Source: a virus
Virus record (IMG/VR): IMGVR_UViG_3300013006_000020
Span: 1 to 64,000 of that record
Length of the DNA: 64,000 nt
Direction: 5' to 3' (one strand)
A model generated the notes under the pieces. It was given only the letters and a program-made list of their open reading frames with translations, was not told the origin of the DNA and did not search any database. Shown here piece by piece: positions 3,699-63,276 of this stretch (the first letter of the stretch is position 1; the number at the start of each line of letters is the position of its first letter). The position numbers and the translations under genes are program-made.

Positions 3699-4523
3699 TT
3701 ATACCTCAATACCCATTGATCGTAGCTCTTCTTTGGTTGGCGGTTTCTGACCAAGAAGAACAAAACCAGCTATAAGAATAGCTAAAATAGGACCGGTAAC
3801 AGGTGCGCTAGTTCCGCCACTAGCGATGGTTATGCCTAGCGCTGCAAGCATCGCTATAATGAGCGCGCCTCGCAAATCAACCGATGCAAGTCCCTGTGAA
3901 AGAACAGCAGATCCAGCTTGTAACACAGACGAAACCTTCTCAAATTCAGCCATTATTACCGTAACTAGTGTTGCTGCTTCTTCTTCAGTCATTTGGGCTA
4001 TTGTTGAACAAAAAGCGTTTGTGTTGCTTCGTCCGCCCATTAGCAGATCGCTTAAAAATTGACTAAATTGTGGACTATTAAATACAGAACGATTAAATGA
4101 ATAAAATGTTTCACCTAAAATAAAACCAAGCTTGCCAATAATTTGTTGAACTAATATTTGAACGAGTGCTGGGTTTGCTAAAAACTGGTTAGCTACGCCT
4201 ATCTGCAAAAGTGTGTCAATTATGCTTTTTATAAAAGCGCACAGCATCTTAAAGAAATCAAGCCAACTCGCTACAGATCCAGCTCTAATCATTGATATTG
4301 CAAGTTCGCCTAGTTTGGTTACTATCATACCAATAACAACAACAGACGTTATTGCACCGCCACCAGCAGTAAAGCATGAATTTACTGAAGTCAATAATTC
4401 TTTAATTGTTTTTGCTAGGTTAAGTTCAGGACATTGGGCCTTTTCTTTTATGCCCTCATTTTCAACAGTTAAAAGCTCAACCTGTCTATTCATTGCCTTG
4501 ATAAATAATTCGTATCTATTCAC
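3699..4523 (-). CDS. Leader-tagged membrane protein
   Basis: 274 residues, GTG start. The N-terminus MNRYELFIKAMNRQVELL is a short amphipathic helix of the type shared by many proteins in this phage. Hydrophobic segments follow at roughly 56-80 (AITSVVVIGMIVTKLGELA), 85-115, and a long Gly/Ala-rich pair near the C-terminus (ALIIAMLAALGITIASGG and ILAILIAGFVLLG). No known family. The design, a leader helix plus a late hydrophobic hairpin, matches the two proteins at 61.5-63.3 kb. Membrane insertion at infection or lysis is possible but unproven. Confidence 0.6.
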   Translation of the reverse strand: MNRYELFIKAMNRQVELLTVENEGIKEKAQCPELNLAKTIKELLTSVNSCFTAGGGAITSVVVIGMIVTKLGELAISMIRAGSVASWLDFFKMLCAFIKSIIDTLLQIGVANQFLANPALVQILVQQIIGKLGFILGETFYSFNRSVFNSPQFSQFLSDLLMGGRSNTNAFCSTIAQMTEEEAATLVTVIMAEFEKVSSVLQAGSAVLSQGLASVDLRGALIIAMLAALGITIASGGTSAPVTGPILAILIAGFVLLGQKPPTKEELRSMGIEV

Positions 4524-4531
4524 ACATTAAA

Positions 4532-4537
4532 ATACAC
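4532..4537 (-). promoter_or_regulatory. GTGTAT late-promoter motif
   Basis: Minus-strand GTGTATTTTAAT, 14 bases before the GTG start at 4523. It forms a divergent pair with the plus-strand motif at 4559. Confidence 0.45.
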
Positions 4538-4558
4538 TCAAAGCAAAACATATGATAA

Positions 4559-4564
4559 GTGTAT
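4559..4564 (+). promoter_or_regulatory. GTGTAT late-promoter motif
   Basis: GTGTATCTATTAAA, 18 bases before the ATG at 4577. Its own GTG is in frame with the gene and can be mistaken for the start codon. Confidence 0.45.
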
Positions 4565-4576
4565 CTATTAAAGAAT

Positions 4577-5266
4577 ATGAACAGTCTCAAAGCTAAAATA
4601 GAAGTTTTAAGAGTTGCTGTGAGTGCAGCACCACCACCATCAACACCTGTTAGATGTAAAGATATAGTAGCAAAATGGGCAAATATAAGAGCAAAAATAA
4701 ATCAGGCTTACGAGGCTGGTGTAAGCCAAGTTAATGGTTTAACTTTTAACACTCTTGGTAATGTTTGGACTTTTGAGACGTGGAATGATCAAAACGGAAA
4801 TCCCTTTCCACCAGAGCTTTTTAAGTTTGATCTTTCAAATCCTTATACCCCATCAAACAACTACCCGCCAGCTGCTGCAGCCGTACAGGTTGCTCCACAA
4901 ATTGGTCCAGCTTTAGAAAATGAAGCTAATGTTGCAAAAGAAAAACTATTACAGTGCATTAGAGAGATGCGAAAATGCGCAATTACACGGGGTTATAAAG
5001 ACCAAAGAAGTGGAAAATATATTCGTGGAAAATGGGATATGCTTTACGCGGCAGCTGTTGGTGAAGCAATAGAATTGGCACGAAAAGCGTGCGAGCCTTA
5101 CGCCTCCGCTGGTGGAATGAGTAGACCTACTACATCTCAAAAGAGGGATTTTTTCAAAGCTCAAATGACATCTATTTTAGACGGAGTAAGATCAGCTCTT
5201 GGGCCACCGTGTAAGCCATGTATTAAAACTCCAGCACCAGCACAAACAGCTCCAGCAACACCATAA
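4577..5266 (+). CDS. Leader-tagged hypothetical protein
   Basis: 229 residues from the ATG at 4577; the in-frame GTG at 4559 belongs to the promoter motif. The N-terminus MNSLKAKIEVLRVAVSAA is the short amphipathic leader, followed by a Pro-rich linker (PPPSTP). The body has paired Cys (LLQCIREMRKCAITRGYKD, then KACEP) and ends in CKPCIKTPAPAQTAP. No enzyme motif is visible. It starts a plus-strand run of leader-tagged genes through 9.3 kb. Likely a virion or infection-stage protein, by context only. Confidence 0.6.
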   Translation: MNSLKAKIEVLRVAVSAAPPPSTPVRCKDIVAKWANIRAKINQAYEAGVSQVNGLTFNTLGNVWTFETWNDQNGNPFPPELFKFDLSNPYTPSNNYPPAAAAVQVAPQIGPALENEANVAKEKLLQCIREMRKCAITRGYKDQRSGKYIRGKWDMLYAAAVGEAIELARKACEPYASAGGMSRPTTSQKRDFFKAQMTSILDGVRSALGPPCKPCIKTPAPAQTAPATP

Positions 5267-5287
5267 AATAATAGCCTAGGAATAATA

Positions 5288-5917
5288 ATGAACCCTATTG
5301 ATAAATTAAAATTTGTATTAGCAAAAGAGCCAACAGACTGCACTAAGATAACCGCTAAATATGCAAAAAAAATAGCAGCTGCTAATTCTTGCAAAACGGC
5401 TGGATTTAGAGCGGCAGATAATATTACTTGGATAAATAACAATAGACCTGATGATGGAATGACTAATTTTAGTTGGACCTGGGAGCGATGTGCTCCAGAA
5501 GGAGAGACTTCTTTTTTTCCTGAGGGTAATAAAAATCCTTTAAGGGGTGGCGCTAGTAGCCCAAACCAAGACGGTGGTGGTGGATCTATGAGACCGCCAC
5601 GTGGTCGTGGTGCTGTTATGCCAGCAGTTTTGACCCCGGGCTTAATGGATCCTTCAATGGGGCCTCCATCAAATCAAGATCGTCTTGATGCACGGCAAAG
5701 TGAAGAAAAATGCAAAATTTTGCTAAAGCACAACCAGATTCTTTATTCCCTAGCTGTAGAAAAAGAAAATGAACTTTACGCTGGCGGTTGCTCTCCGTAT
5801 CAAACAAATGTCGGCACAAGAAAAGAGTTGTTGGAGAAGAAAAAGGCGGACCTTGAAGCAAAATTTCTTAAAAACCAATCTGTAATAAATGGAAAAAAAC
5901 CATGCAAAAAAACTTAA
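5288..5917 (+). CDS. Leader-tagged hypothetical protein, Pro/Gly-rich middle
   Basis: 209 residues beginning MNPIDKLKFVLAKEPTDC, another leader helix. A Cys-containing helical region (ITAKYAKKIAAANSCKT) is followed by a low-complexity Gly/Pro/Arg stretch at about 95-135 (for example GGGGSMRPPRGRGAV) and a charged helical C-terminus (KELLEKKKADLEAKF). No family recognised. It lies 21 bases after the previous gene and overlaps the next by 16 bases, so it is co-transcribed with both. Confidence 0.6.
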   Translation: MNPIDKLKFVLAKEPTDCTKITAKYAKKIAAANSCKTAGFRAADNITWINNNRPDDGMTNFSWTWERCAPEGETSFFPEGNKNPLRGGASSPNQDGGGGSMRPPRGRGAVMPAVLTPGLMDPSMGPPSNQDRLDARQSEEKCKILLKHNQILYSLAVEKENELYAGGCSPYQTNVGTRKELLEKKKADLEAKFLKNQSVINGKKPCKKT

Positions 5918-6348
5918 TTATTGCAATTGCTAAGCTCGCAACAGCTGTAAGAGAAAATTACGCTGTGGTCCCTTGCACACTAATGAAAATTAGCCCCTCC
6001 AAAAGAGCATTACGCTGCAATTGGAAACCAACAGATATATCAAAGATTGCTTCTGATATAGCAACAAAGGCTAAAACTCAACAATTGTCTTCTGAGTGTG
6101 TTGAGCAAATAGTTCGATCATTTTCAGATACTTTTAATATGAAGTGTGGCAACATGGGAAAAGGTATGTACTCTGGCGCCTATCAGGCTCTTAGATCTGA
6201 TCTTATTAGACGTGGTATAATTAAAACAACAACCAAGACTAGCAAACCAGCACCAAAACCAAATTATAATAAACCATCGGTGCTTGTACCAGACTCGCCA
6301 AGACCATACGAGACAATACGAATGGCAAATGTTGACATAACTAAATAA
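5902..6348 (+). CDS. Leader-tagged hypothetical protein
   Basis: 148 residues starting MQKNLIIAIAKLATAVRENY, again an amphipathic leader. The body has four well-spaced Cys and a helical core (SECVEQIVRSFSDTFNMKCG), then a Pro/Lys tail. It overlaps the end of the preceding frame by 16 bases, which suggests translational coupling. Unknown function. Confidence 0.6.
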   Translation: MQKNLIIAIAKLATAVRENYAVVPCTLMKISPSKRALRCNWKPTDISKIASDIATKAKTQQLSSECVEQIVRSFSDTFNMKCGNMGKGMYSGAYQALRSDLIRRGIIKTTTKTSKPAPKPNYNKPSVLVPDSPRPYETIRMANVDITK

Positions 6349-6351
6349 CAG

Positions 6352-6357
6352 GTGTAT
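6352..6357 (+). promoter_or_regulatory. GTGTAT late-promoter motif
   Basis: GTGTATAATAAA, 29 bases before the ATG at 6381. Confidence 0.5.
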
Positions 6358-6380
6358 AATAAAAAAGGATATATAATTAT

Positions 6381-6710
6381 ATGTCGCTAGAAAATACTAT
6401 AAATCGTTTAACACAAGTAATTAAAGCGGCTAATAGTCGTATGTCAGCGCCAACTAGTCCTTGGTTACCTGGCGACGACCAATTTCCTCGCGATAACAGC
6501 GGAACTTCCAAATGCGCGGGTGTAAGAGCACAAATTACTAGTAATCCTAATATAAGAATATTGGGCTGTCTTGAAGAGACTGGTCGCACTCCCGGTTGCC
6601 AATGCACTACTTATCAAAGAGCCGCTCCTGGTGGCGCTATTTCTACAAGCGGACCAGTAGCAGTTCCATGTAGATGGAGTGAATGCATAACACAGCCTGT
6701 TATGTTTTAA
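6381..6710 (+). CDS. Cassette protein 1: leader plus Cys module
   Basis: 109 residues, the most divergent of five tandem paralogues. The leader is MSLENTINRLTQVIKAA. After a Pro/Gly linker comes a Cys module of the form C..C-x-C..GP..C (CLEETGRTPGCQC, then SGPVAVPC). There is no signal peptide or membrane segment. Each of the first three copies has its own GTGTAT motif. The conserved leader with a freely varying remainder suggests that the leader is the addressed part and the Cys-rich part is the cargo. Confidence 0.65.
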   Translation: MSLENTINRLTQVIKAANSRMSAPTSPWLPGDDQFPRDNSGTSKCAGVRAQITSNPNIRILGCLEETGRTPGCQCTTYQRAAPGGAISTSGPVAVPCRWSECITQPVMF

Positions 6711-6716: not shown

Positions 6717-6722
6717 GTGTAT
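6717..6722 (+). promoter_or_regulatory. GTGTAT late-promoter motif
   Basis: GTGTATAAAAAA, 24 bases before the ATG at 6741, with AAGGA seven bases before the start codon. Confidence 0.5.
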
Positions 6723-6740
6723 AAAAAATAAGGAATAACC

Positions 6741-7010
6741 ATGTCACTAGAAAAATCAATTCAAAAACTTACAAATGCAATTACTGCTGCAAAAATGGCC
6801 CCATCTGTAATGACAGATCCATCTATAGAGCCAATACGAAATCCACCTTTAAAAGTAGTCTGCAAAACGGAATGGGAAGGTATGTGGCCAAACGTCACAG
6901 CAAAATGCGTTTGCAGATTTGGCAAGGATTGCATTGTGGAATCTATGTCAGGACCATGCCTAATAGAAAATTTCAGAACAAATGTCCCCATGGGAACTCC
7001 ATGTCAATAA
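6741..7010 (+). CDS. Cassette protein 2: leader plus Cys module
   Basis: 89 residues. The leader MSLEKSIQKLTNAITAA is nearly identical to that of the next three copies. The single Cys module reads VVCKTEWEG, AKCVCRFGKDC and SGPC, the same C..C-x-C..GP-x-C order as its neighbours with different residues between. It lacks the C-terminal module of copies 3-5. No enzymatic motif. Confidence 0.65.
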   Translation: MSLEKSIQKLTNAITAAKMAPSVMTDPSIEPIRNPPLKVVCKTEWEGMWPNVTAKCVCRFGKDCIVESMSGPCLIENFRTNVPMGTPCQ

Positions 7011-7036
7011 TAATGTAATTAGAAATATTTTAAAAC

Positions 7037-7065
7037 AGCCCTCCTTAACAGGGGGGTTATTTTTT
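7037..7065 (+). terminator. Intrinsic terminator, cassette copy A
   Basis: GCCCTCC, loop TTAACA, GGGGGGT and then TTATTTTTT. It is followed immediately by a GTGTAT motif, so terminator and promoter form one unit that is repeated at 7575 and 8417. Confidence 0.7.
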
Positions 7066-7071
7066 GTGTAT
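7066..7071 (+). promoter_or_regulatory. GTGTAT late-promoter motif
   Basis: GTGTATAATAAATAAG, 28 bases before the ATG at 7094, directly after the T-run of the terminator. Confidence 0.5.
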
Positions 7072-7093
7072 AATAAATAAGAAAAAACCCATT

Positions 7094-7549
7094 ATGTCTT
7101 TAGAAAAATCAATTCAAAAACTAACTCAAGTAATTCAAGCGGCTAAGCAGTTGGGATGCGTTGGTCGTGAGCGTTGCACAACAATGCCAAGAGGAGGTCA
7201 AATAGTTTGTGAGTGCCAAGAACTTAACGCAGACTGCAGTGTTAAGACCAATGGGCGAGTAACAATCACCCCAGGCGAATGCGCAACACAAGGTGACCGT
7301 CCGATGCAAACTCCACGAGTTCCAGTAGCTCCACGGGGTCCAGCAGAGACTGTCGGTCCACCAGCTCCAACTGAAGATTATCCACAGTTTTCGACTTGCT
7401 GGTGGGCGCGCCAAAGGATGATAGAAAATCCAAATTCTATGTCGGATGTCTGTTTTGATGCACGTACACCTGTTCCACATACAAGAATTGAGTTCTATAG
7501 AGATACCCCTGGTGGCCCAATCAAGACCCGGTCAAGCCGGTCGGACTAA
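7094..7549 (+). CDS. Cassette protein 3: leader plus two Cys modules
   Basis: 151 residues from the ATG at 7094; an upstream in-frame start would include the promoter. Order: leader MSLEKSIQKLTQVIQAA; module A (ERCTTMPRGGQIVCECQ to TPGEC); a Pro-rich linker of about 30 residues; module B (CWWARQRMIENP to EFYRDTPGGPIKTR). Modules A and B both recur in the protein at 7927, and B alone at 7632, so the set evolves by module exchange. No catalytic motif is seen; disulfide-stabilised binding domains are one possibility. Confidence 0.65.
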   Translation: MSLEKSIQKLTQVIQAAKQLGCVGRERCTTMPRGGQIVCECQELNADCSVKTNGRVTITPGECATQGDRPMQTPRVPVAPRGPAETVGPPAPTEDYPQFSTCWWARQRMIENPNSMSDVCFDARTPVPHTRIEFYRDTPGGPIKTRSSRSD

Positions 7550-7574
7550 CATCACTAGAAAAAGCAATTAAAAT

Positions 7575-7603
7575 AGCCCTCCTTAACAGGGGGGTTATTT
7601 TTT
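7575..7603 (+). terminator. Intrinsic terminator, cassette copy B
   Basis: Near-identical to the copy at 7037: AGCCCTCC, TTAACA loop, GGGGGGTT and a T-run, followed at once by GTGTAT. Confidence 0.7.
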
Positions 7604-7609
7604 GTGTAT
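7604..7609 (+). promoter_or_regulatory. GTGTAT late-promoter motif
   Basis: GTGTATAATAAATAAG, 28 bases before the ATG at 7632, identical in layout to the copy at 7066. Confidence 0.5.
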
Positions 7610-7631
7610 AATAAATAAGAAGAAACCCATT

Positions 7632-7916
7632 ATGTCGTTAGAAAAATCAATTCAAAAATTAACTCAAGTAATTCAAGCGGCTCAGCTAGGAAGCCAAGAA
7701 CCTACGCAAAATATTAAAAGGCGTGGTGATATGCTGTATGACGATATTAGAGATCTTCCAAAAAATAGATTTGGTCAATCTAGTAAGGATTGCTACAATG
7801 CGCTCAAATATCTAGAACAAGATCCATTTGCGTTGGAGAGCTGCTGTACTGATTCAGAGTTACCTGTTTGCTACTATAGAAATGAAAGGGATGGCGAAAT
7901 TTTTGTTCGTCACTAA
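7632..7916 (+). CDS. Cassette protein 4: leader plus module B only
   Basis: 94 residues, start at the ATG at 7632 by comparison with its paralogues. The leader MSLEKSIQKLTQVIQAA is identical to copies 3 and 5, but module A and the Pro-rich linker are absent. Module B is present as DCYNALKYLEQDP to ESCCTDSELPVCYYRN, matching YYRNTPGGPI in copy 5. It ends ten bases before the next cassette and shares its transcript. Confidence 0.65.
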   Translation: MSLEKSIQKLTQVIQAAQLGSQEPTQNIKRRGDMLYDDIRDLPKNRFGQSSKDCYNALKYLEQDPFALESCCTDSELPVCYYRNERDGEIFVRH

Positions 7917-7926: not shown

Positions 7927-8391
7927 ATGTCTTTAGAAAAATCAATTCAAAAGTTAACCCAGGTAATTCAAGCGGCTCAGCTATACTCAGCACAGGCAAT
8001 AGTTGGTGGCCCCTATGCTAACAGTAGTGAGCGTTGCACAACAGAAACTAGAGGAGGCCAAAAAATGTGTGTGTGCGTGACAATTGGCGCAGACGGCCAG
8101 GTTATACTCAATGGACCAATAACAACCACCCCAGGCCCTTGTAAACCTCGTATACGACAAGTTCACGACCGAGATCCAGATTTTGTCGGCCCACCAACGC
8201 CACTTCCACCACTTCCACCAGAGCCTGTAGATGGATGGGATTGCTATTGGGCGCTCAAAGCTATGACAGACGATACAACAAAAATGGAGTCCTGCTGTTC
8301 TTTGAGACCTCCTGAAATGACAAGAATTTGCTACTATAGAAATACCCCTGGTGGCCCAATACAGAACCGGCCGGCAAACCCGGGAGGATAA
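7927..8391 (+). CDS. Cassette protein 5: leader plus two Cys modules
   Basis: 154 residues from the ATG at 7927. Leader MSLEKSIQKLTQVIQAA, module A (ERCTTETRGGQKMCVCV to TPGPC), a Pro-rich linker (PPTPLPPLPPEP) and module B (DCYWALKAMTDD to ICYYRNTPGGPI). It is the closest relative of copy 3, with most differences outside the leader. The upstream bases ACCCATTATGTC are shared with copies 3 and 4, but there is no promoter motif here, so it is read through from copy 4. Confidence 0.65.
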   Translation: MSLEKSIQKLTQVIQAAQLYSAQAIVGGPYANSSERCTTETRGGQKMCVCVTIGADGQVILNGPITTTPGPCKPRIRQVHDRDPDFVGPPTPLPPLPPEPVDGWDCYWALKAMTDDTTKMESCCSLRPPEMTRICYYRNTPGGPIQNRPANPGG

Positions 8392-8416
8392 CTTTACTAT
8401 AAAAACCAATTAAAAT

Positions 8417-8445
8417 AGCCCTCCTTAACAGGAGGGTTATTCTTT
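8417..8445 (+). terminator. Intrinsic terminator, cassette copy C
   Basis: AGCCCTCC, TTAACA loop, GGAGGGTT and a short T-run; here the stem pairs perfectly. GTGTAT follows immediately. Confidence 0.7.
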
Positions 8446-8451
8446 GTGTAT
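8446..8451 (+). promoter_or_regulatory. GTGTAT late-promoter motif
   Basis: GTGTATTAAAAAT, 13 bases before the ATG at 8459, without a ribosome site. Confidence 0.5.
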
Positions 8452-8458: not shown

Positions 8459-9304
8459 ATGGATTTTTCCGCTATTAATAAACTTAATATTCTGCTTGGT
8501 ATCGCAAAGCCAGAACCAACAGTTTTTACACCATCGCCAGCCGAGCCAGCAGCAAAACCACCGAAAAAACCAAAGCCTGCACCTATTCCTTGTTTTAAGC
8601 TTAATGCATACTGGAAAAGCCTAATTGGTTTTTGGGAGGGCTATAGGCCCTATAGATATAGAGATAGCGAAGGCTATTGGACAGTAGGAGTTGGAACACT
8701 AATTGATAAAAGAAAAGTTTCAATTTCAAGAATTCAATCAAGGCTTGGTGGATATTTTACATCAGTAATGGATGGTATAAACTCCGACACTGATCCAATA
8801 ATATTTTCTGCAGGCTCTAGAAATGGAGATAGTCCAATGCCAGGAACATCTCAAGCTCCAGTATCTATTGATACTGCTTGGCAGTGGGCGGATGTAGATC
8901 TACAAAACGCATATAAGGTTATATTTAACCTTTTAGGTCCAGAAGCATGGTCAAGATTATCGTATCCAGTACAATGTGTTTTGGTTTCGCTAAGCTATCA
9001 AGCAGATATAAGAAACTTTGTTTTATTAATAGCAGCCTTAAAACAACAGCCACCAGACTATGTAGAAGCGGCAAACCAAATGAAAAGATCAACTTGGTAT
9101 AGTCAAACACAAAGTGACAGAAAAGAACCAATGATTGCGATAATGAAATCAGGAGGTTCGTATACACCAACAACGATTGGCACATTTACAGCATCAAATC
9201 CAGAAACAGCAAGAACAAATCCATGTAATTTAAATTCTTCAACAAATCCAGAAAGTTTACCAAATTGGCCATCTACACCTCAAGAAACATTGATCTTGGA
9301 TTAA
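8459..9304 (+). CDS. Leader-tagged T4-type lysozyme (GH24-like)
   Basis: 281 residues from the ATG at 8459. Order: leader MDFSAINKLNILLGIAK; a Pro/Lys linker (about 18-45); a lysozyme domain opening LIGFWEGYRPYRYRDSEG. Glu60, Asp69 and Thr75 keep the spacing of the catalytic Glu11, Asp20 and Thr26 of T4 lysozyme, so muramidase activity on peptidoglycan is expected. No signal peptide. The leader is of the kind on the neighbouring cassette proteins, so this enzyme may be carried in the virion rather than being the main endolysin. The C-terminal ~80 residues are Thr/Asn/Pro-rich. Confidence 0.8.
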   Translation: MDFSAINKLNILLGIAKPEPTVFTPSPAEPAAKPPKKPKPAPIPCFKLNAYWKSLIGFWEGYRPYRYRDSEGYWTVGVGTLIDKRKVSISRIQSRLGGYFTSVMDGINSDTDPIIFSAGSRNGDSPMPGTSQAPVSIDTAWQWADVDLQNAYKVIFNLLGPEAWSRLSYPVQCVLVSLSYQADIRNFVLLIAALKQQPPDYVEAANQMKRSTWYSQTQSDRKEPMIAIMKSGGSYTPTTIGTFTASNPETARTNPCNLNSSTNPESLPNWPSTPQETLILD

Positions 9305-13195: not shown

Positions 13196-13685
13196 TAATC
13201 AAGAAAAAAAACCATGGGACTTTACTGAAAAGCTACCTTCAAAGTTTTTTGTAAAAAATGTTATGGTAAAAAATCTTGAGTATGGCGATTATACTCTTGA
13301 TGGTTACGATCTTCCAGAGTTTAAAAACAGTATTATAATTGAAAGAAAAGCTTCTGTAGAAGAGCTTTTGGGTAATGTTGGAAAAAACTGGGAAAGATTT
13401 CAAAGAGAACTAGACGGCCTTCAAAAGTATTCAAGAGCGGTAATAATAGTAGAGGATGATCTTCATGACGCATATGCAAAATACATGGGGAGAAATCCAA
13501 AAAAGGGAATGTACTTTACATTACCGCCGGACTTTTTGCTTTCTCGAATAACAGAGATAGATTACAAATGGGGCATCAAAACTTTATTTTTAAGCAGCAA
13601 GTATTTTGCAAGACGATACGCATGTAATATGTTTAGATCAATATTAGGAGAAATTAAAAATGAATCTGAGCCAAGAGTATCTTGA
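13116..13685 (+). CDS. ERCC4/XPF-type nuclease
   Basis: 189 residues. Residues about 24-110 hold an ERCC4 nuclease core: VIIDNQEKKPWDF, the GDY of LEYGDYTLDGY, IIIERKASVEELLG, then WERFQRELDGL and VIIVEDD. The ERK triplet with the upstream Asp matches the metal site of XPF/Mus81 nucleases, which cut branched or flap DNA. There is no helicase or HhH part, so it is a minimal single-domain form. It overlaps HNH upstream and terminase downstream by 26 bases. Resolving branched DNA during packaging is an attractive role by context. Confidence 0.75.
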   Translation: MNSGNKGSLKKAQKTLESVTYANVIIDNQEKKPWDFTEKLPSKFFVKNVMVKNLEYGDYTLDGYDLPEFKNSIIIERKASVEELLGNVGKNWERFQRELDGLQKYSRAVIIVEDDLHDAYAKYMGRNPKKGMYFTLPPDFLLSRITEIDYKWGIKTLFLSSKYFARRYACNMFRSILGEIKNESEPRVS

Positions 13686-15630
13686 TAATTTATACCTAGA
13701 GCTTGGAGACACTAGATCTCTTGATATCTCTAATCCTATAGATATATACGCGCCAAAAGAAAGAACCGCTGAAGAACTTATTAAAATGGGGATGGACCCA
13801 CGATACATTGGGTTTACCGCAAAACACTTTCTAGGTGTTAATTTATTCCCGTATCAAATGGCGGTATTAAACGAAATATGGAATAAAAGACTTCCAATTT
13901 TGATTGCAACCAGAGGTGGTGCAAAAACAACCATGCTTGGTATAACAGCAATACTAAAAGCCATGTTTAATCAAGGCTCTAAAATAGTCATTGCTGGTGC
14001 TGGTTTAAGACAATCTGGTTTAGTGTTTGAGTCTATGGAAAATATTTGGAAGAACGCTCCCATTCTTCAAGATATATGTGGATCAAACAATGGACCAAGA
14101 CGAAGCGTCCTTGGATTCAACTGGGATATTGGTGATAGCAAGATCATGGGCATCCCAATTGGTACAGGTGAAAAAATCAGAGGTCTGCGTGCCAATGTAA
14201 TTATCGTTGACGAGTTTGCATCAGTTAATCCTGATATTTTTGAAGTTGTAATTAGAGGCTTTGCAGCAGTACAAAGTCAAAATACCTTTGAAAAAGTAAA
14301 ACAAGAATATATACGAAGAGCAATTCAAGAAACTCTTGGTGAAGAAGCCGTTGATGATGCGTTAAAAAACACAGGCAACCAAATAATACTTGCGGGTACT
14401 GTTAGCTATCAATTTAATCATTTTTATAAATACTATCAAGACTACGTAAACATTATAACCTCTGATGGAAAAGCAGGAGTTGATCCAAGTGAATACGCAA
14501 TAGTCAGAATACCTTTTGATCAAATGCCACCTGGCATTATGGATGAAACCATTTTAAATCAAGGTAGAGCCACAATGGATTCTGTAATTTTTAAAATGGA
14601 ATATGGCTGTGTGTTTGCAAAAGACTCAGAAGGATTCTATCCGGCGTCTGCAATATATGCCGCCACAAGCCCGATTAAAACCCCCGAGGGAGATATATCC
14701 TTTACTGTTGAGTCGTACGGAGACAAAACAGCTAAATATGTTCTTGGAATTGACCCCGCATCCGAGCGAGATAATCTTGCAATCAGTATTATCAAAGTAA
14801 CAGAAAACGCTAAACAGCTTGTTTTTTGTTGGAGCACAAACAGAAAGCGATTTGAGGCCGACAAGAAAAAACACCCAGACAGATACAAAGAAATATCTGA
14901 TTACAATACCTTCATTCTTAGAAAGATACATGAGCTTTTTGCTAGATTTAATATAGTTAGAATGCATTTAGACTCTGGCGGTGGTGGTAGATCCATTCTT
15001 GAGGGCCTAAAGGACCATTCTAAACTTAAAGATGGCGAGTATTGCATATATGATATGGATGACGAAGAGTGTTCTGATAAAGTTGGTTTGCATGTTATCA
15101 AAGTAATAGAGTTCTCTTCTAGAGAGTGGTATGAGGGAGCACATTTTAATCTACTTAAAGATATCACAACTATGAAAATACTTTTTCCCGAGTACGATGC
15201 TTTGGGAATAGAGCAGGCAAAAATACTTGGTTTAGAATCAGATAATGATTACAACCACGATAACATACTATCAGAGATAGAAGAGTGTAAGTATCAAACC
15301 ACCTTAATACAAGAACAAACCACTCCTAAAGGACAAAAAAGATGGGATCTACCAAGGATAAAAGGGGTGGTTACAGAGGGTGTAAAACTCAGACTTAAAA
15401 AAGACCATTTCACAAGCTTGTTGCTAGCAAATGATGCCGCACGAAATCTTAATACTGAGGTGCAGCAACAAATATCTACTTTTGGTGGATACTCTTCAAA
15501 ATACATAGTGCAAAACAATATACGCTCAGATGTGATGTATCAAGGTCGTGGAATGAGAAAGATGAAAGGTGATCAAAGATCTTCAAATATTTCTATAGAA
15601 CAGGGCAGACAGGGAAACATAGCGTATTAG
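13660..15630 (+). CDS. Terminase large subunit
   Basis: 656 residues. The packaging ATPase has Walker A ATRGGAKTT (83-91) and Walker B IIVDE (181-185); the coupling segment is ILAGTVSY near 243-250. The C-terminal nuclease has LGIDPASERDN with Asp365 and a second acidic motif in MHLDSGGGGRS. It pumps DNA into the prohead and cuts it to length. The gene precedes the portal directly. The Walker A has Ala where many terminases have Gly or Ser. No intein or intron interrupts it. Confidence 0.92.
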   Translation: MNLSQEYLDNLYLELGDTRSLDISNPIDIYAPKERTAEELIKMGMDPRYIGFTAKHFLGVNLFPYQMAVLNEIWNKRLPILIATRGGAKTTMLGITAILKAMFNQGSKIVIAGAGLRQSGLVFESMENIWKNAPILQDICGSNNGPRRSVLGFNWDIGDSKIMGIPIGTGEKIRGLRANVIIVDEFASVNPDIFEVVIRGFAAVQSQNTFEKVKQEYIRRAIQETLGEEAVDDALKNTGNQIILAGTVSYQFNHFYKYYQDYVNIITSDGKAGVDPSEYAIVRIPFDQMPPGIMDETILNQGRATMDSVIFKMEYGCVFAKDSEGFYPASAIYAATSPIKTPEGDISFTVESYGDKTAKYVLGIDPASERDNLAISIIKVTENAKQLVFCWSTNRKRFEADKKKHPDRYKEISDYNTFILRKIHELFARFNIVRMHLDSGGGGRSILEGLKDHSKLKDGEYCIYDMDDEECSDKVGLHVIKVIEFSSREWYEGAHFNLLKDITTMKILFPEYDALGIEQAKILGLESDNDYNHDNILSEIEECKYQTTLIQEQTTPKGQKRWDLPRIKGVVTEGVKLRLKKDHFTSLLLANDAARNLNTEVQQQISTFGGYSSKYIVQNNIRSDVMYQGRGMRKMKGDQRSSNISIEQGRQGNIAY

Positions 15631-44469: not shown

Positions 44470-45063
44470 ATGCAAGAAAATAAATCAATAGCTAAATTAA
44501 CAGAACTTTTAGTCCAGCAAAAACTCATAGCAAATGATGCTCAACTAGGCGTAGTTATGCCAAATCCATATGACACTCCACCTATTACTATTCCAGAAAT
44601 GGCGCCATTGTTTCCAGGAGTAAAGCCATGCGGATCTACCGAGCAAAATGATTCGTGCGCTGCCTGCGATGAGCTTGCTAGAATAACCGCTCGTATCGAA
44701 AGGGTATCAGATCCTATTGTAATAGGAAGGCTAATAAAAGCAAAAAACGCAATTGGAGATATGTGCGCTCTTATTCAGGGGTGTTCAACACAGCAAAGCG
44801 GAAATATAGCACCATATCAAGACGGTACAGTGTGTTTGTGTTCTGCATTTATGCAATTAATTACATCCTTTATAGGCACCGTTAATGCCGCTTTAGTTCA
44901 ACCTCAATGGAGTGACAAATCAAGAAAGGCATTGACAAAAACGCTTAACTCTCAAAAAGATACATTCCGCAGGACTATAACTGAATGCTATAGACGTTAT
45001 AGAATCTCAGATAATAAAACATCTCAAAATGAGATTTTAAAAATAATTAATACACACTCATGA
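44470..45063 (+). CDS. Leader-tagged Cys-rich protein
   Basis: 197 residues starting MQENKSIAKLTELLVQQKLIA, the same kind of amphipathic leader as the 6-8 kb cassettes. Eight Cys follow, in pairs (CGSTEQNDSCAACDELAR, TVCLCSAFMQL), with a helical body. It starts one base after the XhlA-like gene. Unknown function; its leader places it in the tagged-cargo set. Confidence 0.6.
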   Translation: MQENKSIAKLTELLVQQKLIANDAQLGVVMPNPYDTPPITIPEMAPLFPGVKPCGSTEQNDSCAACDELARITARIERVSDPIVIGRLIKAKNAIGDMCALIQGCSTQQSGNIAPYQDGTVCLCSAFMQLITSFIGTVNAALVQPQWSDKSRKALTKTLNSQKDTFRRTITECYRRYRISDNKTSQNEILKIINTHS

Positions 45064-55184: not shown

Positions 55185-55190
55185 GTGTAT
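55185..55190 (+). promoter_or_regulatory. GTGTAT late-promoter motif
   Basis: GTGTATATTACTAT, 16 bases before the ATG at 55201, divergent from the replication promoter. Confidence 0.5.
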
Positions 55191-55200
55191 ATTACTATTG

Positions 55201-55896
55201 ATGGATCATCGCGCTAAAGTTATTAAAAAACATTTAAACGCTGTCGCAAAACAAGTTGTTGTTCCTCCACAACCTACGCGATTCGATGAGCCTAATCTGC
55301 CACTCGATACAACTCCAGGCCCTTGGTATGATCCTACGCCATCACGTTGGCAATTTTCAATGCTAGATCTGTTGCGAGCGTTTTATAATGGGGTTGACTC
55401 TTTAAGAGCATACATTCAAAAGTGGCTTATAAGCCTTGGTTTAACACCAAGCCTTGCTAGAATATTAACAATAAATCTTACTCTAACAAGCGAAACAATA
55501 TATACTATTGCTAATTGGATTTTAAGACCAGGAAGCGTAAATTTACCACGTGATCTTTTTCAAAACTTACTTAGGGAGCTTTTGTGGCAATTGCTTCCCG
55601 CTAATGTTGTAACCTCCATAGACAGCGATGTATGGGATACTTTTTATTATTTTGAAAACAGAGGCGTGTTTTTCTTTGGTGAAATTGCTGCAGCTATCAA
55701 CAGGGGTTGGACATTACAACAAATAATAAGCTGGTTAAAATTTTCAATTGAAAGAATGATGAATGATAGCGATTGGACTTTTTATTGGCCAGAAACAGTA
55801 GAAGAGGCGCAAGAGTTTATAGATTCTTACGGGGAAAATAATGATACAAACGGACCTGGTGATCTAGTGAATCCAGAACAGCCACCAGTTCCATAA
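55201..55896 (+). CDS. Leader-tagged hypothetical protein
   Basis: 231 residues from the ATG at 55201 (a TTG just upstream is not needed). The N-terminus MDHRAKVIKKHLNAVAKQVV is the amphipathic leader type. A Pro-rich linker follows, then a Trp-rich, partly hydrophobic body (FSMLDLLRAFYNGVDSL, WLISLGLTPSLARILT). No family. A candidate virion cargo protein. Confidence 0.6.
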   Translation: MDHRAKVIKKHLNAVAKQVVVPPQPTRFDEPNLPLDTTPGPWYDPTPSRWQFSMLDLLRAFYNGVDSLRAYIQKWLISLGLTPSLARILTINLTLTSETIYTIANWILRPGSVNLPRDLFQNLLRELLWQLLPANVVTSIDSDVWDTFYYFENRGVFFFGEIAAAINRGWTLQQIISWLKFSIERMMNDSDWTFYWPETVEEAQEFIDSYGENNDTNGPGDLVNPEQPPVP

Positions 55897-55909: not shown

Positions 55910-56482
55910 ATGAATAAATTTGAGCAAATATTACGCAAAAACATTCAGGCCGTTACCTTAGATACAGTTCAAAGACAAACAGATCAGGTTGAGAGATTTC
56001 CTGCTGATAAATTTCCATGCAACGTTCCAGGTACTGCAGTTCTAGATGTAAACGCTGTATGTACAGCTGTTAATCAATTAAGTTCAACTGCTGGTAATCC
56101 AGGAAATAATAAGTGCGCCAAGTTAATTAAAAAATATAACACTACGGCGTGCATTGACAGGGACTATATAAAAGCAGATACAGTCATACGTAAATGTGAT
56201 GATTACGTTAACTCCGTGGTCTCCGCGCTGTCTAACAATGCTACAGATGCAAAAAGAGCAGAAGCTAGAAGAAAAGCAAAATGCGATTGTCTAAATTTTG
56301 CCATATACGGAAGACCAGTATTAACTTCTGTTACCTTCCCAGCTGGAGTTATGAATAAGCAAATTGCGGATTTTGATAATGCGTATTGCTCTTATACATA
56401 TCTTGCAAGAGTCTGCGATGAAAGAAGGAAAGTTTCAGATGCCTTAAATGCTATTAGTCCCGTTTGTCGCTTCCCTCTATAA
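55910..56482 (+). CDS. Leader-tagged Cys-rich protein
   Basis: 190 residues starting MNKFEQILRKNIQAVTLDTV. The body has at least ten Cys (CNVPG, VCTAV, KCAKL, ACIDR, KCDDY, KCDCL, YCSY, VCDER, VCRF), far above average, with helical stretches. It overlaps the metallopeptidase gene on the other strand by 29 bases. Another member of the leader-tagged set. Confidence 0.6.
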   Translation: MNKFEQILRKNIQAVTLDTVQRQTDQVERFPADKFPCNVPGTAVLDVNAVCTAVNQLSSTAGNPGNNKCAKLIKKYNTTACIDRDYIKADTVIRKCDDYVNSVVSALSNNATDAKRAEARRKAKCDCLNFAIYGRPVLTSVTFPAGVMNKQIADFDNAYCSYTYLARVCDERRKVSDALNAISPVCRFPL

Positions 56483-57172: not shown

Positions 57173-59026
57173 ATGGCAAGAATAAAGACAAAAAACTCCA
57201 CAACTTCTACATCCGTACCAGCCAGCGGTTCTTTGCTACGGGGAGAGATTGCGGTAAACATAACAGACAAAAAACTTTTTGTTGGTGACGCATCAGGAAA
57301 TCCAGTAGAAATCACAAACCAGGGCGTTACCGCTGTATACGGCTCAACAAGCGGTATTTACGTTACGCAAGCAACTGGATCGACAGTAATAGGTCTTGAT
57401 CCGGACATTTACGTTAGTGGAGTTTTGCAAGTTAGCGGTGTTATTTCCACAACCGGAACCGCTGGTAGTTTGTTTAACGATACAGCTCTGAGTGTAAATA
57501 TTGGCGGTGGCGCAAGCGGTGTACAGATTGGTCACCCGACCGGAACCGTGGTGATGGGAAACATCGCGGTGAACAGCGGAACCATTTCAACAACCGCGTT
57601 AGCCGGTGATATATTTAACGCTACAGCGGCAAGAATAAACATTGGCGCTGGTGCAAGCGGTGTTCTTATAGGTCACGCCACGGGTGTGGTCACAGTTGGC
57701 GACCTTGCTGTAAATTACGGAACCATTTCAACAACCGCCACTGGTGTCAGTATATTTGACGCGACTGCGCTTCGTGTAAACATAGGCGGTGGCGCAAGCG
57801 GTGTACAGATAGGTCATCCAACTGGAACCGTTGTGATGGGCAACATCGCGGTGAACAGCGGAACCATTTCAACAACTGCGTTAGCCGGCGATATATTTAA
57901 CGCTACAGCAGCACGAATAAACATTGGCGCTGCAGCAAGCGGTGTTAAAATAGGAAACGCGACCGGCGTAGTGGTTGTTGGTGACATTGCCGTTAACAAC
58001 GGAGCGATCACTACAACTGCTGCTACAGCAACACTGTTTAATGCTACAGCTTCTCGTGTAAACATTGGCGCTGGTGCAAGCGGGGTTCTTATAGGTCACG
58101 CTACTGGTGTCGTTACTGTTGGTGATATTGCTGTCAACGACGGAACCATTTCTACAACTGCCGCAACAGCCACACTTTTTGACGCAACAGCCACCACCAT
58201 AACAATTGGCAGCGCTGCTACAACAACAAACATAGCAGCTATTACCGGTAGTCAAACCATCAATATTGGTGCTGGAAATACTGCGGTTTTTACCACCAAA
58301 ACCATAAACATTGGCACAAATGGAGCGGCTGGAAGTATTTCTAACGTAAACATTGGAAATACGGTCGCGGGAGGAACTGTTACAATAAACGGCACATTAG
58401 CTGTGAACAGTGGAACTCTCACAACAGCTAATTCCACAGGCTTCATATTTAACGCAGGCACTTCTCGCGTAAACATTGGTGGCGCAGCAAGTGGTGTAAT
58501 GATTGGTAACGCTACTGGTGTCGTGACAGTTGGTGATATTGCCGTTAACAACGGAGCAATTACTACGACAGCAGCCACCGCAACACTATTCAATGCTACG
58601 GCTTCTCGCGTAAACATTGGCGCTGGCGCTAGTGGTGTGCAAATTGGACATCCAACTGGAACAGTTGTGATGGGAAACATTAGTGCTACTGGACATGTTT
58701 CTGCGGCAAGTGGATATAGAATTGCATCAGCGGCAATCAATGCACAAACAGCAACTGGTTATACGCTAGTTTCTACAGATAATGGTAAAATAATAACCTT
58801 TGATAGCGCCGCCACGCACACGCTAAGAATACCAACTGGTCTGGATATTGGATTTAATGCCACAATAATTCAACTTGGAACTGGACAAGTTACCTGTACT
58901 GGTTTAGCTGGAGCAACAGTCAACTGCTACGCATCTGGAAACAAAATACTAGGACAGCACGGATCTGCAAGCGTACTATGCTATGCTAGCAATGTCTATA
59001 ATTTAGCAGGAACACTCGGAATATGA
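57173..59026 (+). CDS. Repeat-rich tail fibre
   Basis: 617 residues. The N-terminus (LLRGEIAVNITDKKLFVGDASGNP) is the docking/shaft start common to phage fibres. Residues 108-343 contain five perfect-length 47-residue units (starts at 108, 155, 202, 249, 296), then a spacer and two more (433, 480), each with NIGxGASGVxIGxxTG and IAVNxGxIxTT. The last ~110 residues (YTLVSTDNGKIITFD to GQHGSASVLCY) match a typical fibre tip fold. It probably recognises host glycans. Confidence 0.8.
   Translation: MARIKTKNSTTSTSVPASGSLLRGEIAVNITDKKLFVGDASGNPVEITNQGVTAVYGSTSGIYVTQATGSTVIGLDPDIYVSGVLQVSGVISTTGTAGSLFNDTALSVNIGGGASGVQIGHPTGTVVMGNIAVNSGTISTTALAGDIFNATAARINIGAGASGVLIGHATGVVTVGDLAVNYGTISTTATGVSIFDATALRVNIGGGASGVQIGHPTGTVVMGNIAVNSGTISTTALAGDIFNATAARINIGAAASGVKIGNATGVVVVGDIAVNNGAITTTAATATLFNATASRVNIGAGASGVLIGHATGVVTVGDIAVNDGTISTTAATATLFDATATTITIGSAATTTNIAAITGSQTINIGAGNTAVFTTKTINIGTNGAAGSISNVNIGNTVAGGTVTINGTLAVNSGTLTTANSTGFIFNAGTSRVNIGGAASGVMIGNATGVVTVGDIAVNNGAITTTAATATLFNATASRVNIGAGASGVQIGHPTGTVVMGNISATGHVSAASGYRIASAAINAQTATGYTLVSTDNGKIITFDSAATHTLRIPTGLDIGFNATIIQLGTGQVTCTGLAGATVNCYASGNKILGQHGSASVLCYASNVYNLAGTLGI
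57494..58680 (+). repeat. Tandem 141-base units inside the fibre gene
   Basis: Units of 141 bases encode the 47-residue shaft repeat. Alternate units are the most alike: the stretch GGAACCATTTCAACAAC recurs at matching places in units 282 bases apart. The pattern suggests growth by duplication of a two-unit block. Confidence 0.75.
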
Positions 59027-60575: not shown

Positions 60576-60577
60576 TT

Positions 60578-60583
60578 GTGTAT
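60578..60583 (+). promoter_or_regulatory. GTGTAT late-promoter motif
   Basis: GTGTATATTAAACT, 14 bases before the ATG at 60592, with no ribosome site. Confidence 0.5.
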
Positions 60584-60591
60584 ATTAAACT

Positions 60592-60873
60592 ATGAAAGCA
60601 AATAGCCATAAAGTAAAGAGGGCGCTTCGTGCCTTGCAGATAGCAATGGGTATGGAGGTGACTTCATACAAAGGAATTAATGTTGGAGACAGAGTTAAGG
60701 ACATTAATCAACAATGCATGCACTTTGGAAGTATTGGTGTAGTTACAGAGATTGAGCCGCTTCCAAACAATAGTGGTTATCTTATTCATTATACGGTTGA
60801 GAATGATGGGCCTTCTTATAGCCCAGGCACAGTACTAACAAAAACAGAAGATCAATTGGAGAAAATATCATGA
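60592..60873 (+). CDS. Leader-tagged SH3/KOW-like protein
   Basis: 93 residues: leader MKANSHKVKRALRALQIAMGM, then a small barrel pattern INVGDRVKDINQQCMHFGSIGVVTEIEPLP with a conserved-looking YSPGTVLTKT. The barrel recurs in the next protein. It overlaps the next gene by four bases. Unknown role. Confidence 0.55.
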   Translation: MKANSHKVKRALRALQIAMGMEVTSYKGINVGDRVKDINQQCMHFGSIGVVTEIEPLPNNSGYLIHYTVENDGPSYSPGTVLTKTEDQLEKIS

Positions 60874-61115
60874 GCGAAGAAGAAAACGAATACTCTTACA
60901 CACCACCACAGCAGCCACAGCAGCCACAAGTGGCTAGCATTTCCGAGGGCGATATAGTTAGCTGCGGAAACAAGGACTCAGTTAACTTCGGCGTTTGGGG
61001 CGAGGTTTTAGAAATTAACTCTGGGATTGCAACGATTAAAATAATGAATCCTGAGTTTCCACGCAACACTGGATGGAATATAGCGGAAAGTGTTGAGAGT
61101 CTGGAGAAGTTATGA
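60870..61115 (+). CDS. Small SH3/KOW-like protein
   Basis: 81 residues: an acidic Pro/Gln-rich N-terminus (TPPQQPQQPQ) and a barrel motif ISEGDIVSCGNKDSVNFGVWGEVLEI like that of the upstream protein. No leader helix. It overlaps the next gene by four bases. Function unknown. Confidence 0.55.
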   Translation: MSEEENEYSYTPPQQPQQPQVASISEGDIVSCGNKDSVNFGVWGEVLEINSGIATIKIMNPEFPRNTGWNIAESVESLEKL

Positions 61116-61492
61116 CCGAATCTGAACTTGACGTAATTTTTGCAGCTGAGCAAACGCAAGCCGTTGAGTATCAGGGCAAGAAAGTTACCCTTAACCAACC
61201 AAGGCGAATAGGCAAGGGTGATCCAGGTTACGGCAAGAAGAAGTTTTATGTTTATGTAAAGAATGATCGCGGCAATGTTGTTCGCGTGATGTTTGGTGAT
61301 CCTAATATGGAAATCCGTCGTGACGATCCACAAAGACGAAAAAACTACAGATCTCGTCACGGATGCAGTAATCCAGGACCAAAGTGGAAAGCAAACTATT
61401 GGTCATGTAGGATGTGGGAAGCTAAAAAATCCGTTACTGATTATACTAGTAGCGGATTAATTAAGGCTTTTATACGTGCAATAAATTCTTGA
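61112..61492 (+). CDS. Conserved phage protein, DUF5872-like
   Basis: 126 residues. FYVYVKNDRGNVVRVMFGDP, then RRDDPQRRKNYRSRHGCSNPG and KANYWSCRMWE form a pattern I recall from a widespread small phage domain (DUF5872-type) sometimes attached to prohead protease genes. Very basic centre. Likely a virion or head-maturation protein. The stop is shared with the convergent gene's end. Confidence 0.55.
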   Translation: MTESELDVIFAAEQTQAVEYQGKKVTLNQPRRIGKGDPGYGKKKFYVYVKNDRGNVVRVMFGDPNMEIRRDDPQRRKNYRSRHGCSNPGPKWKANYWSCRMWEAKKSVTDYTSSGLIKAFIRAINS

Positions 61493-62287
61493 TTACACAG
61501 TGTTATCAGGTGGTTGATTGTTGCCTTGGTTTTGTTGCAACCAAATACCTAGAGCAATTATTGTTGCCGCGACTGTACCAACTGCAATACCAGCTGGTAA
61601 ACCCAAGCCTGTTAAATCTAGAACAAATGATCCAGCGGCTAAAGCTACGCCAAGAGCAATTATGGCTGCTACGGTTAGACCTAGACCAGCCAACCAATTA
61701 GCAAGTTGTTCGTTGCCACCGTTTGCCAACACATACATTCTAATAGCAGCATTTTGAGCGCCTGTTCGAAGATAGATGGCGGCTATTGCAATAAGACCTT
61801 CCTCGGTTTTATCCTTTAATCTTTCTAAAACTTCATCGGGTGTAAGCCCTAAGCCGTCAGCCGCAACCCCTATTCTGATTTTCACTTCATTAAGAGATAA
61901 AAACTCTGCCCTGCACTCATCGTCTAATTTATCGATTACGTCTTTTAGAATTGAAAATAACTCAACGGCATCCATCCCAGGTTCAGGCTTAGAATTTTTT
62001 ATTCTTCTTATTAATATATCTAAAGCCTTTTTTGCACAAGCACCTGTACCAGACTGATTTTCTTTATATAATTGGTATAATTTACGTAACAGGGGAATTA
62101 AAAGCAAGCCAAGTGTTGGTAATAAGACTGTAACCCACGTGTAATCTTTAGGTTCTTCTTGTCTTATTGAGTCATCAGATTCTAGAGGTCCAATGCCCTC
62201 AAATGTATTTGGCGCTATAACTGTATCGCCTTTACGTGCGGCGATCTTGGCAATGTAGTTGAATAGACGAATGTCGTTTTCTCTCAT
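61493..62287 (-). CDS. Leader-tagged membrane protein
   Basis: 264 residues starting MRENDIRLFNYIAKIAARKG, a leader-type helix. One membrane helix follows (WVTVLLPTLGLLLIPLL, about 50-66), a soluble helical middle, and a long C-terminal hydrophobic Gly/Ala block (LTVAAIIALGVALAAGSF, AGIAVGTVAATIIALGIWL) that could form a membrane hairpin. The start overlaps the upstream gene by four bases. It resembles the protein at 3,699 in plan. A pore or ejection role is possible. Confidence 0.6.
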   Translation of the reverse strand: MRENDIRLFNYIAKIAARKGDTVIAPNTFEGIGPLESDDSIRQEEPKDYTWVTVLLPTLGLLLIPLLRKLYQLYKENQSGTGACAKKALDILIRRIKNSKPEPGMDAVELFSILKDVIDKLDDECRAEFLSLNEVKIRIGVAADGLGLTPDEVLERLKDKTEEGLIAIAAIYLRTGAQNAAIRMYVLANGGNEQLANWLAGLGLTVAAIIALGVALAAGSFVLDLTGLGLPAGIAVGTVAATIIALGIWLQQNQGNNQPPDNTV

Positions 62288-63276
62288 GTTGATGGCACCA
62301 GTCCTCTAGCTATCTTCTCTAATATCTCTTGTATTCTTTGTAGCGCAGCAGGATTTAATGCTGCCCCAGCCGCACTTGCTGCAGAGGCAGCAGCATTCGC
62401 TGCAGTTGAAGACAACCATACACCAAGAGTGGCAAGGCTTCCACCACCAAGCAAGAATGCGCTGAGGGCAACAAGACCCGCAGCAAGCGCCGCCACTAGA
62501 ACTGTAGAGCCGACGCCATATGAATCACTAAATCCACTTACAAGAAGTGTAGCGGCATCAACAGCTAAAGCTGTAGTCATGGCAGAACCAACACCAATTA
62601 CAAAAGCGTAAGCAAAAGCTTCTAGATCGCCATCATTAAAATATTTATCAATAGCGAATCTAATTTTATCAAGAATACCTTGTGGTAAGTTTGGAAGTCT
62701 ATCTGTTACATACTTTTTAAAAATATCTTTAACAAGTCCAGGAAATGATGTGATACAATTTCTTAGTTTTTTACGAATATCCGACATTTCTTCTGGACTA
62801 TCAACATTATTTATACCTCTAACATTGTCTATTGCTGTACCTATTTGGGTCATAGCAGTACCCCCCTCTTTAAACGCGTCCCACGCCGTTCTTAGCGCTA
62901 TAAGAAGTTCTGTTAATCCCATATTTGATGTTAAACTTTGACCAGTCTGCGATCCAAGAGAACCACCAAGACTTGTCCTGAAGGCATTTGAAACTATTCT
63001 TATAATATCTTCTTTTAACCATCTATTTATTAATTTTGCGCACTCTTTAAACTTTTTTATATTTTGACTTTTAGCCCAAGCAAATGCAACAACTGCACTA
63101 AGCCCAAGTGCCTTAGCTAGCGATATAAAAAAACTATAATCATCAGAATCACTAACCGGCGCATCTTCTTCCATTGGTTCAGCAGTATATAAAACTGTTG
63201 GAATAGGACTATTAACAGCAAATGCGTAATTGTTAGCTATAGAATTTAGTGATTTAATGAAGCGTTGGTTGTTCAC
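62284..63276 (-). CDS. Leader-tagged membrane protein
   Basis: 330 residues, GTG start. Leader MNNQRFIKSLNSIANNYAFAV; hydrophobic segments FFISLAKALGLSAVVAFAWA, VGSAMTTALAVDAATLLVSGF and a C-terminal Ala/Gly block (VLVAALAAGLVALSAFLLGG, STAANAAASAASAAGA). No enzyme motif. GTGTAT lies 14 bases before the start, and the next gene is coupled by ATGA. Like its neighbour, perhaps delivered from the virion into the host membrane. Confidence 0.6.
   Translation of the reverse strand: MNNQRFIKSLNSIANNYAFAVNSPIPTVLYTAEPMEEDAPVSDSDDYSFFISLAKALGLSAVVAFAWAKSQNIKKFKECAKLINRWLKEDIIRIVSNAFRTSLGGSLGSQTGQSLTSNMGLTELLIALRTAWDAFKEGGTAMTQIGTAIDNVRGINNVDSPEEMSDIRKKLRNCITSFPGLVKDIFKKYVTDRLPNLPQGILDKIRFAIDKYFNDGDLEAFAYAFVIGVGSAMTTALAVDAATLLVSGFSDSYGVGSTVLVAALAAGLVALSAFLLGGGSLATLGVWLSSTAANAAASAASAAGAALNPAALQRIQEILEKIARGLVPST

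Follow-up and report, generated by a model that had tools for sequence, protein, structure and literature searches.

What does one short helix do at the start of so many proteins of a single virus? The question is raised by IMG/VR record IMGVR_UViG_3300013006_000020, a virus record of 121,997 bases, of which bases 1-64000 were analysed (hereafter the window). An initial annotation had listed sixteen proteins of the window that begin with a common amphipathic segment, and had likened this segment to the capsid-targeting sequence (CTS) of the bacteriophage T4 internal proteins. We find the tag to be real in five proteins, here called the MSLEK group, and in most of the other listed proteins. As to its function, we consider it marginally probable, judging from the genes, that the tag is a helix for loading cargo into the virion, similar in its working to the T4 CTS without being one.

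A common N-terminal tag

A near-identical tag of 17 residues (MSLEKSIQKLTQVIQAA) is common to the five proteins of the MSLEK group, and looser versions open most of the other listed proteins. All sixteen starts are present where they had been placed; for 4577, 7094, 7632, 7927, 8459 and 55201, an ATG within a longer open reading frame (ORF) probably serves as the start. The formula M-x(3-6)-[IV]-x-[KR]-x-[LI]-x-x-[IV]-x-x-A that had been given for the tag matches none of the sixteen proteins as written; a corrected core, M-x(1-8)-[ILVF]-x-[KRAS]-[LIM]-x-x-[ILVA], matches 10 of the 16. The N-termini were scored with a leave-one-out (LOO) position-specific scoring matrix, using 161 N-termini of T4, SPO1 and MaeS and 714 internal pseudo-starts as controls, a test that is biased because the entries had been picked by eye. 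In this test the claim of a common tag on at least fifteen proteins held for 13 of the 16 (P<=0.0103), i.e. the proteins starting at 5902 and 55910 were marginal and the one starting at 4523(-) was unsupported alone. The features are the following:

6381..6431, + strand: tag MSLENTINRLTQVIKAA of a 109-aa Cys-rich protein (6381-6710); LOO 9.5, 0/161 control N-termini; DNA island
6741..6791, + strand: tag MSLEKSIQKLTNAITAA of an 89-aa Cys-rich protein (6741-7010); LOO 16.2; DNA island
7094..7144, + strand: tag MSLEKSIQKLTQVIQAA of a 151-aa protein (7094-7549) with a CxC module and then a DCY/CYYRN-type module; LOO 16.5
7632..7682, + strand: tag MSLEKSIQKLTQVIQAA of a 94-aa protein (7632-7916) with the second module alone; LOO 16.5
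7927..7977, + strand: tag MSLEKSIQKLTQVIQAA of a 154-aa protein (7927-8391) with both modules; LOO 16.5
8459..9304, + strand: tagged GH24 lysozyme, helix MDFSAINKLNILLGIA, linker KPEPTVFTPSPAEPAAKPP; LOO 13.3 for the tag
4577..5266, + strand: tagged protein, helix and SAAPPPSTP linker; LOO 7.9; orthologs keep the pattern
5288..5917, + strand: tagged protein MNPIDKLKFVLAKEP; LOO 9.3; orthologs bear other tags, e.g. NSISKLIYVLGAAP
5902..6348, + strand: probable tagged protein MQKNLIIAIAKLATAV; LOO 4.4, P=0.018, marginal
3699..4523, - strand: membrane protein (5 predicted transmembrane (TM) segments) with the tag-like start MNRYELFIKAMNRQVE; LOO 0.2, P=0.088, unsupported alone
44470..45063, + strand: tagged protein MQENKSIAKLTELLVQQ; LOO 7.5, P=0.002
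55201..55896, + strand: tagged protein, helix and PPQPTRFDEPNLPLDTTP linker; LOO 6.0, P=0.007
55910..56482, + strand: probable tagged protein MNKFEQILRKNIQAV; LOO 2.2, P=0.045, marginal
60592..60873, + strand: tagged 93-aa protein KVKRALRALQIAMG; LOO 12.4
61493..62287, - strand: tagged membrane protein (3 predicted TM segments) LFNYIAKIAARKG; LOO 7.1, P=0.002
62284..63276, - strand: tagged membrane protein (3 predicted TM segments) FIKSLNSIANNYAFAVNSPIPTVLYTAEP; LOO 5.3, P=0.010

The TM segments were predicted by a simple hydropathy count, in which three tagged proteins were positive. The orthologs of 3699-4523(-) retain the pattern [FI]-x-x-[AS]-[IML]-N-[KR]-Q.

Relatives of the virus (34-98% terminase identity) were taken from viral contigs, and larger stretches were used for thirteen records. 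When 20 different DNA sequences of the MSLEK tag, taken from the window and these relatives, were compared, the proportion of synonymous differences (pS) was 0.52 and that of nonsynonymous differences (pN) 0.15. The residues S2, L3, E4, I7, L10, T11, I14 and A17 are invariant in these tags, and five of them (L3, I7, L10, I14 and A17) form one heptad face that is thus unchanged in 20 copies. It is conspicuous that the MSLEK tag is a conserved island while the flanking DNA is random between most copies: the tag DNA of 6381 and 6741 is 63-76% identical to that of other tags, as compared to 22-35% for the 51 bases upstream and the 150 bases downstream. The pair 7094/7632, with tag DNA 96% identical, is a recent cassette duplication, because the upstream DNA is also alike (98% identical).

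A free expectation-maximisation motif search on the N-termini drifted to a generic helix and failed to beat shuffles; it was replaced by the scoring of held-out families with a profile and by a pairing of N-termini that needs no model. With a profile built from the window's tags, 10 of 508 held-out body families in the relatives scored above 14 bits, six of them again of the MSLEK type; none of the 181 control genes did so, the highest of them reaching 12.7. At 10 bits the counts were 14/508 and 1/181, which is weak by itself. When N-termini were paired directly, with body homologs excluded, 8 pairs scored at least 40 in this genome as compared to 0-1 in shuffles, and the same test recovered T4 IPII/IPIII as a positive control (the T4 internal proteins start with KTYQEFIAEA). 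The excess came mostly from the MSLEK group, and at lower thresholds the relatives G003 and G004 were no higher than shuffles. In other words, for the MSLEK group and most of the others these data disfavour an N-terminal likeness no greater than that between random helical starts.

The hydrophobic moment of the tags is 0.59 versus 0.36, a comparison that is partly circular. In the structural model of the lysozyme 8459 a helix is predicted at residues 4-13, followed by a low-confidence linker (mean predicted local distance difference test score (pLDDT) 61, below 50 in the linker). The Pro-rich linker that had been noted after the tag was borne out by composition, i.e. Pro makes up 9.5% of residues 19-60 in the tagged proteins and 2.4% in the others (p=3e-7). 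A PT-x-hyd-x-P motif recurs in the linkers, mainly among tagged proteins; we call it no more than recurrent because its regular expression shows no enrichment over the whole proteome (7 early and 19 late families).

Turnover of cargo and wall hydrolases

A profile of 28 tags was searched over related phages, as the initial annotation had proposed. The profile finds 7-21 genes of at least 8 bits in those members of the clade that are complete or large, and 0-1 per genome or locus in the deeper relatives (G012, G013, L039, L043 and L126), T4, SPO1 and MaeS. Since training members and their orthologs are included, the clade counts describe a distribution and are no independent test. The tag is confined to the clade with TerL identity of at least 60%. 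Literature searches, incomplete in their coverage, found no description of it.

Within the clade the cargo varies between close relatives while the tag pattern persists, and orthologous bodies sometimes bear different tags. Orthologs of 44470, for example, start with YSSLNKLKFVISQSAPT or MKYSSLNKLKFVISQ instead of MQENKSIAKLTELLVQQ, and the G005 body homolog of 55910 bears MSIERSIQKLLAVVGPP. An MSLEK-type protein of L008 also has the linker TRFDEPNMPLESTP of 55201. Beyond the window, at 79-86 kb of the record, there are six further genes with a tag or a tag-like start, four with strong tags (P<=0.0011; starts at 79954, 80942, 82562 and 85903(-)) and two with weaker ones (78999, P=0.086; 81748, P=0.023).

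The Cys content is higher in the tagged proteins than in the others (median 4.5% versus 1.9%, p=3e-4). The tagged bodies had been called unrelated, and this is correct for part of the list. The exceptions are the five MSLEK proteins, which have common Cys-rich modules, and the genes at 78999-81727, which belong to a single family of paralogs. The MSLEK bodies are paralogs built of modules: the CxC module and another Cys-rich one are common to 7094 and 7927, the latter module alone is present in 7632, and 6741 has a separate body of the CxC type. These modules were read by eye; 7094, 7632 and 7927 are also linked by BLAST.

We note some further features of the genes beyond the window. The four paralogs at 78999-82557 of the record (L001:16999 onward) share a C-terminal Cys module, GACC-x-P-x-GEFGGF, and three of them have, besides the N-terminal tag, a C-terminal helix EA(M/I)DMV(V/M)S(L/S)LK. 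The Met-rich acidic protein with a tag-like start at 85523-85903(-) is also found in G003, G004, G008 and G009 and is the most widely retained tag gene observed.

The product of 8459-9304 is a GH24 (T4-type) lysozyme by active site and fold. Its E60, D69 and T75 (the E/D/T active site) are invariant, it matches phrog_7 (E=4.3e-7), and its best Foldseek matches are T4 lysozyme (E 5e-5, ~20% identity); the PF00959 score of 21.2 bits lies below the cut-off of 22.3. A weak PHROG similarity to baseplate hub lysozymes was also seen. In other relatives the tag is found on a different wall hydrolase, which begins with MKNILDKLKFAMSAIES... or MQKIIDKLNFIFSAIEQ... and resembles Hydrolase_2 (PF07486; 24.3 and 26.1 bits against a cut-off of 27, E ~1e-5). 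Longer tagged homologs occur in G002/L008, L016 and L021, those of L008 and L016 matching by BLAST only.

The GH24 lysozyme was found in G000, G003, G004, L012 and L028, and the Hydrolase_2-like protein in G001, G002, G006-G010, L016, L021 and others; no genome or locus examined, several of them fragments, has both, and both are tagged. In L008, L016 and L021 the longer hydrolase sits beside the terminase genes, at the position of the lysozyme in G000. Judged by their sequences, two non-homologous tagged wall hydrolases thus replace each other in the relatives.

A promoter-like motif and the structural genes

The sequence GTGTATAWW has 13 copies in the window, where 2.6 would be expected, and 0 of 100 shuffles reach 13. 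Its core GTGTAT lies within 80 bases upstream of 11 of 22 tagged genes and 9 of 23 structural genes, as compared to 10 of 118 other genes (tagged versus other, p=1.6e-5; structural versus other, p=6e-4). We suggest that this motif, common to tagged and structural genes, is a late promoter. Six of its occurrences precede tagged genes as follows, the first two and the last two being assigned from the motif excess and the tag/structural association:

6352..6360, + strand: promoter-like motif GTGTATAAT before 6381
6717..6725, + strand: promoter-like motif GTGTATAAA before 6741
7066..7074, + strand: promoter-like motif GTGTATAAT before 7094, directly behind the inverted repeat CCCTCCTTAACAGGGGGG and a T run
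7604..7612, + strand: promoter-like motif GTGTATAAT before 7632, behind a similar inverted repeat
55185..55193, + strand: promoter-like motif GTGTATATT before 55201
60578..60586, + strand: promoter-like motif GTGTATATT before 60592

An inverted repeat CCCTCC-TTAACA-GGRGGG with a T run and then the motif is found at 7036-7074, 7574-7612 and 8412-8450, i.e. before 7094, 7632 and 8459. Such units of repeat and motif make self-contained gene cassettes.

The structural genes are those of an uncultured long-tailed phage, as follows from the terminase, the portal, the long tape measure and a weak capsid match:

13660-15630: terminase
15662-17296: portal
21634-22698: capsid, weak match
29581-35304: tape measure, 1907 aa

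A near-identity search among named phages gave no match, TerL being only ~25% similar to theirs. A TerL search for the host in genome contigs gave one 35% relative in a SAR202 metagenome-assembled genome, which does not identify the host. Bases 1-123 of the record are identical to 121875-121997, and the record is probably a complete circular map because of these identical ends. Positions 1-2000 of the window are ORF-poor and have a GC content of ~60%, versus 39% elsewhere; they are phage DNA and not an assembly chimera, because ~80% similar sequence lies inside the relatives G003, G004 and G006. Genes for tRNA-Arg(tct), tRNA-Leu(caa) and tRNA-Lys(ttt) lie at 13674-18288 of L002, in the right part of the record. 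The N-terminus of the product of 57173-59026 is similar to Mtd_N (major tropism determinant), at an E of 2e-4 that is under the cut-off.

The gene at 19039-20973, between the portal and capsid genes, is conserved; in its product H101 and S180 are invariant, and a long coiled coil lies at 483-556. The product is possibly a protease-scaffold fusion. A head-protease identity was not found for it by Pfam, PHROGs, hhalign or Foldseek, and its AlphaFold2 model is poor (pLDDT 54.5).

Function of the tag and known systems

Taken as a virion address, the tag would be a one-faced amphipathic N-terminal helix of ~13-17 residues, with a flexible, often Pro-rich linker and a variable body. The tagged proteins would be made together with the structural proteins, and the hydrophobic face would most likely dock into a common partner within the virion under assembly (the scaffold core, the inner capsid or the portal). 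In this way a wall hydrolase (lysozyme or another), proteins active on membranes and the small proteins rich in Cys would be enclosed and then delivered at infection. We hold this targeting to be the best supported explanation because of the motif shared with structural genes, the cargo turnover, the hydrolase and membrane cargo, and the precedents of T4 and P1. It is a fair possibility, though short of a probability, that the clade loads some twenty proteins by one general address helix unrelated to that of T4, gains new cargo by fusing small domains to it, and exchanges hydrolase families under the tag.

Several points weigh against such an address. The main doubt is that the single wall hydrolase of each genome could be no more than its lysis enzyme (endolysin). 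Furthermore, several tags are weak when taken singly, the label 'late' for the motif derives solely from its presence before structural genes, and neither a head protease nor a partner of the tag was identified (19039-20973 was scanned by family, fold and hhalign). A gp21-type (L/I)xE cleavage site is not enriched either: the loose form [LIVFM]xE occurs at residues 6-35 in 32% of the tagged and 35% of the other proteins.

The doubt about the endolysin leads to the idea, which we regard as somewhat unlikely, that the helix is a late-infection element for membrane or envelope targeting (lysis, envelope remodelling) and no virion address. Wall hydrolases and membrane proteins would then be tagged because their site of action is the envelope, approached from within. 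Amphipathic helices are able to bind to membranes, TM segments are predicted in three tagged proteins, no other wall hydrolase is seen among the tail proteins scanned, and a single hydrolase per genome, exchanged between two non-homologous types, is endolysin-like. Nevertheless, integral membrane proteins would need no membrane-binding helix, many of the cargo proteins are small, soluble and Cys-rich, and endolysins seldom bear such helices. It is quite unlikely that the tag directs cargo to the tail tube or baseplate instead of the head. Up to about twenty cargo proteins, some longer than 300 aa and with TM segments, would be much for a tail tube, and to our knowledge the experimentally proven phage N-terminal addresses all lead to the head, even if tail-associated lysozymes are common, the tail of this phage is long (the tape measure has 1907 aa), and the phage lysozyme weakly resembles those of baseplate hubs.

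The remaining explanations deny the tag a targeting function. The N-termini could be relics of duplication or recombination at repeated gene starts, since the near-identical upstream and tag DNA of 7094/7632 shows that cassette duplication occurs, and the MSLEK bodies are modular paralogs. This appears very improbable in view of the excess of pS over pN and the invariant hydrophobic face, and the pattern is found again, in a different sequence, in other clades and joined to other bodies. A chance likeness of ordinary helical starts is scarcely credible for the set as a whole: amphipathic starts are common and the free motif search gave generic helices, but the held-out profile, the pair test, the DNA island, the LOO scores and the clade distribution all speak against it. 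Single weak members may nevertheless owe their likeness to chance, and 4523(-) and 55910 are indeed unremarkable.

If the tag does send proteins into the particle, sequence alone is enough to draw up the cargo list of an uncultured phage, the small Cys-rich proteins become candidates for delivery at infection, and a new linker-joined tag would be at hand for loading proteins into phage heads. It would also mean that phage N-terminal address tags arose more than once, with a design resembling that of microcompartment encapsulation peptides.

In T4 the CTS, the first 10 residues, is an experimentally proven N-terminal address (PMC9026906), and the cargo of internal proteins is highly variable between relatives (PMC3012670, PMC9026906). 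As in IPI, IPII and IPIII, a short segment at the extreme N terminus is found here on otherwise dissimilar proteins, i.e. the same tag on variable cargo. However, the tag is a longer helix with a Pro-rich linker, has many more cargo proteins and is known from genes alone. The T4-type sequence (MKTYQEFI-like) is absent by our profile, which finds 0 of 63 T4 ORFs at 6 bits or more, internal proteins included. The proposed parallel with T4 therefore survives as an analogous design, the best supported one, while neither a T4-type sequence nor an enriched T4-type cleavage motif is seen; the best reading is that membership of the T4 CTS family is unsupported and likeness in working is supported. In phage P1 the first 30 residues of DarB suffice to carry a reporter into the capsid, and BLAST found no consensus among the Dar N-termini (PMC9024508); both systems would be N-terminal addresses, but the common pattern is clear only here. 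The head of SPN3US carries a large protein set (PMC5694885, PMC10052503), a cargo of ejection proteins that was established there by mass spectrometry. Finally, in bacterial microcompartments a helix with a disordered linker is able to load cargo (PMC12339742). Like such encapsulation peptides (~18 residues, e.g. that of PduP), the tag is a terminal amphipathic helix with one conserved hydrophobic face, followed by a variable, disordered linker (as judged by Pro content and the pLDDT below 50 in the lysozyme). Here the bearers are phage late genes with no microcompartment context, so the likeness is at most a convergent design.

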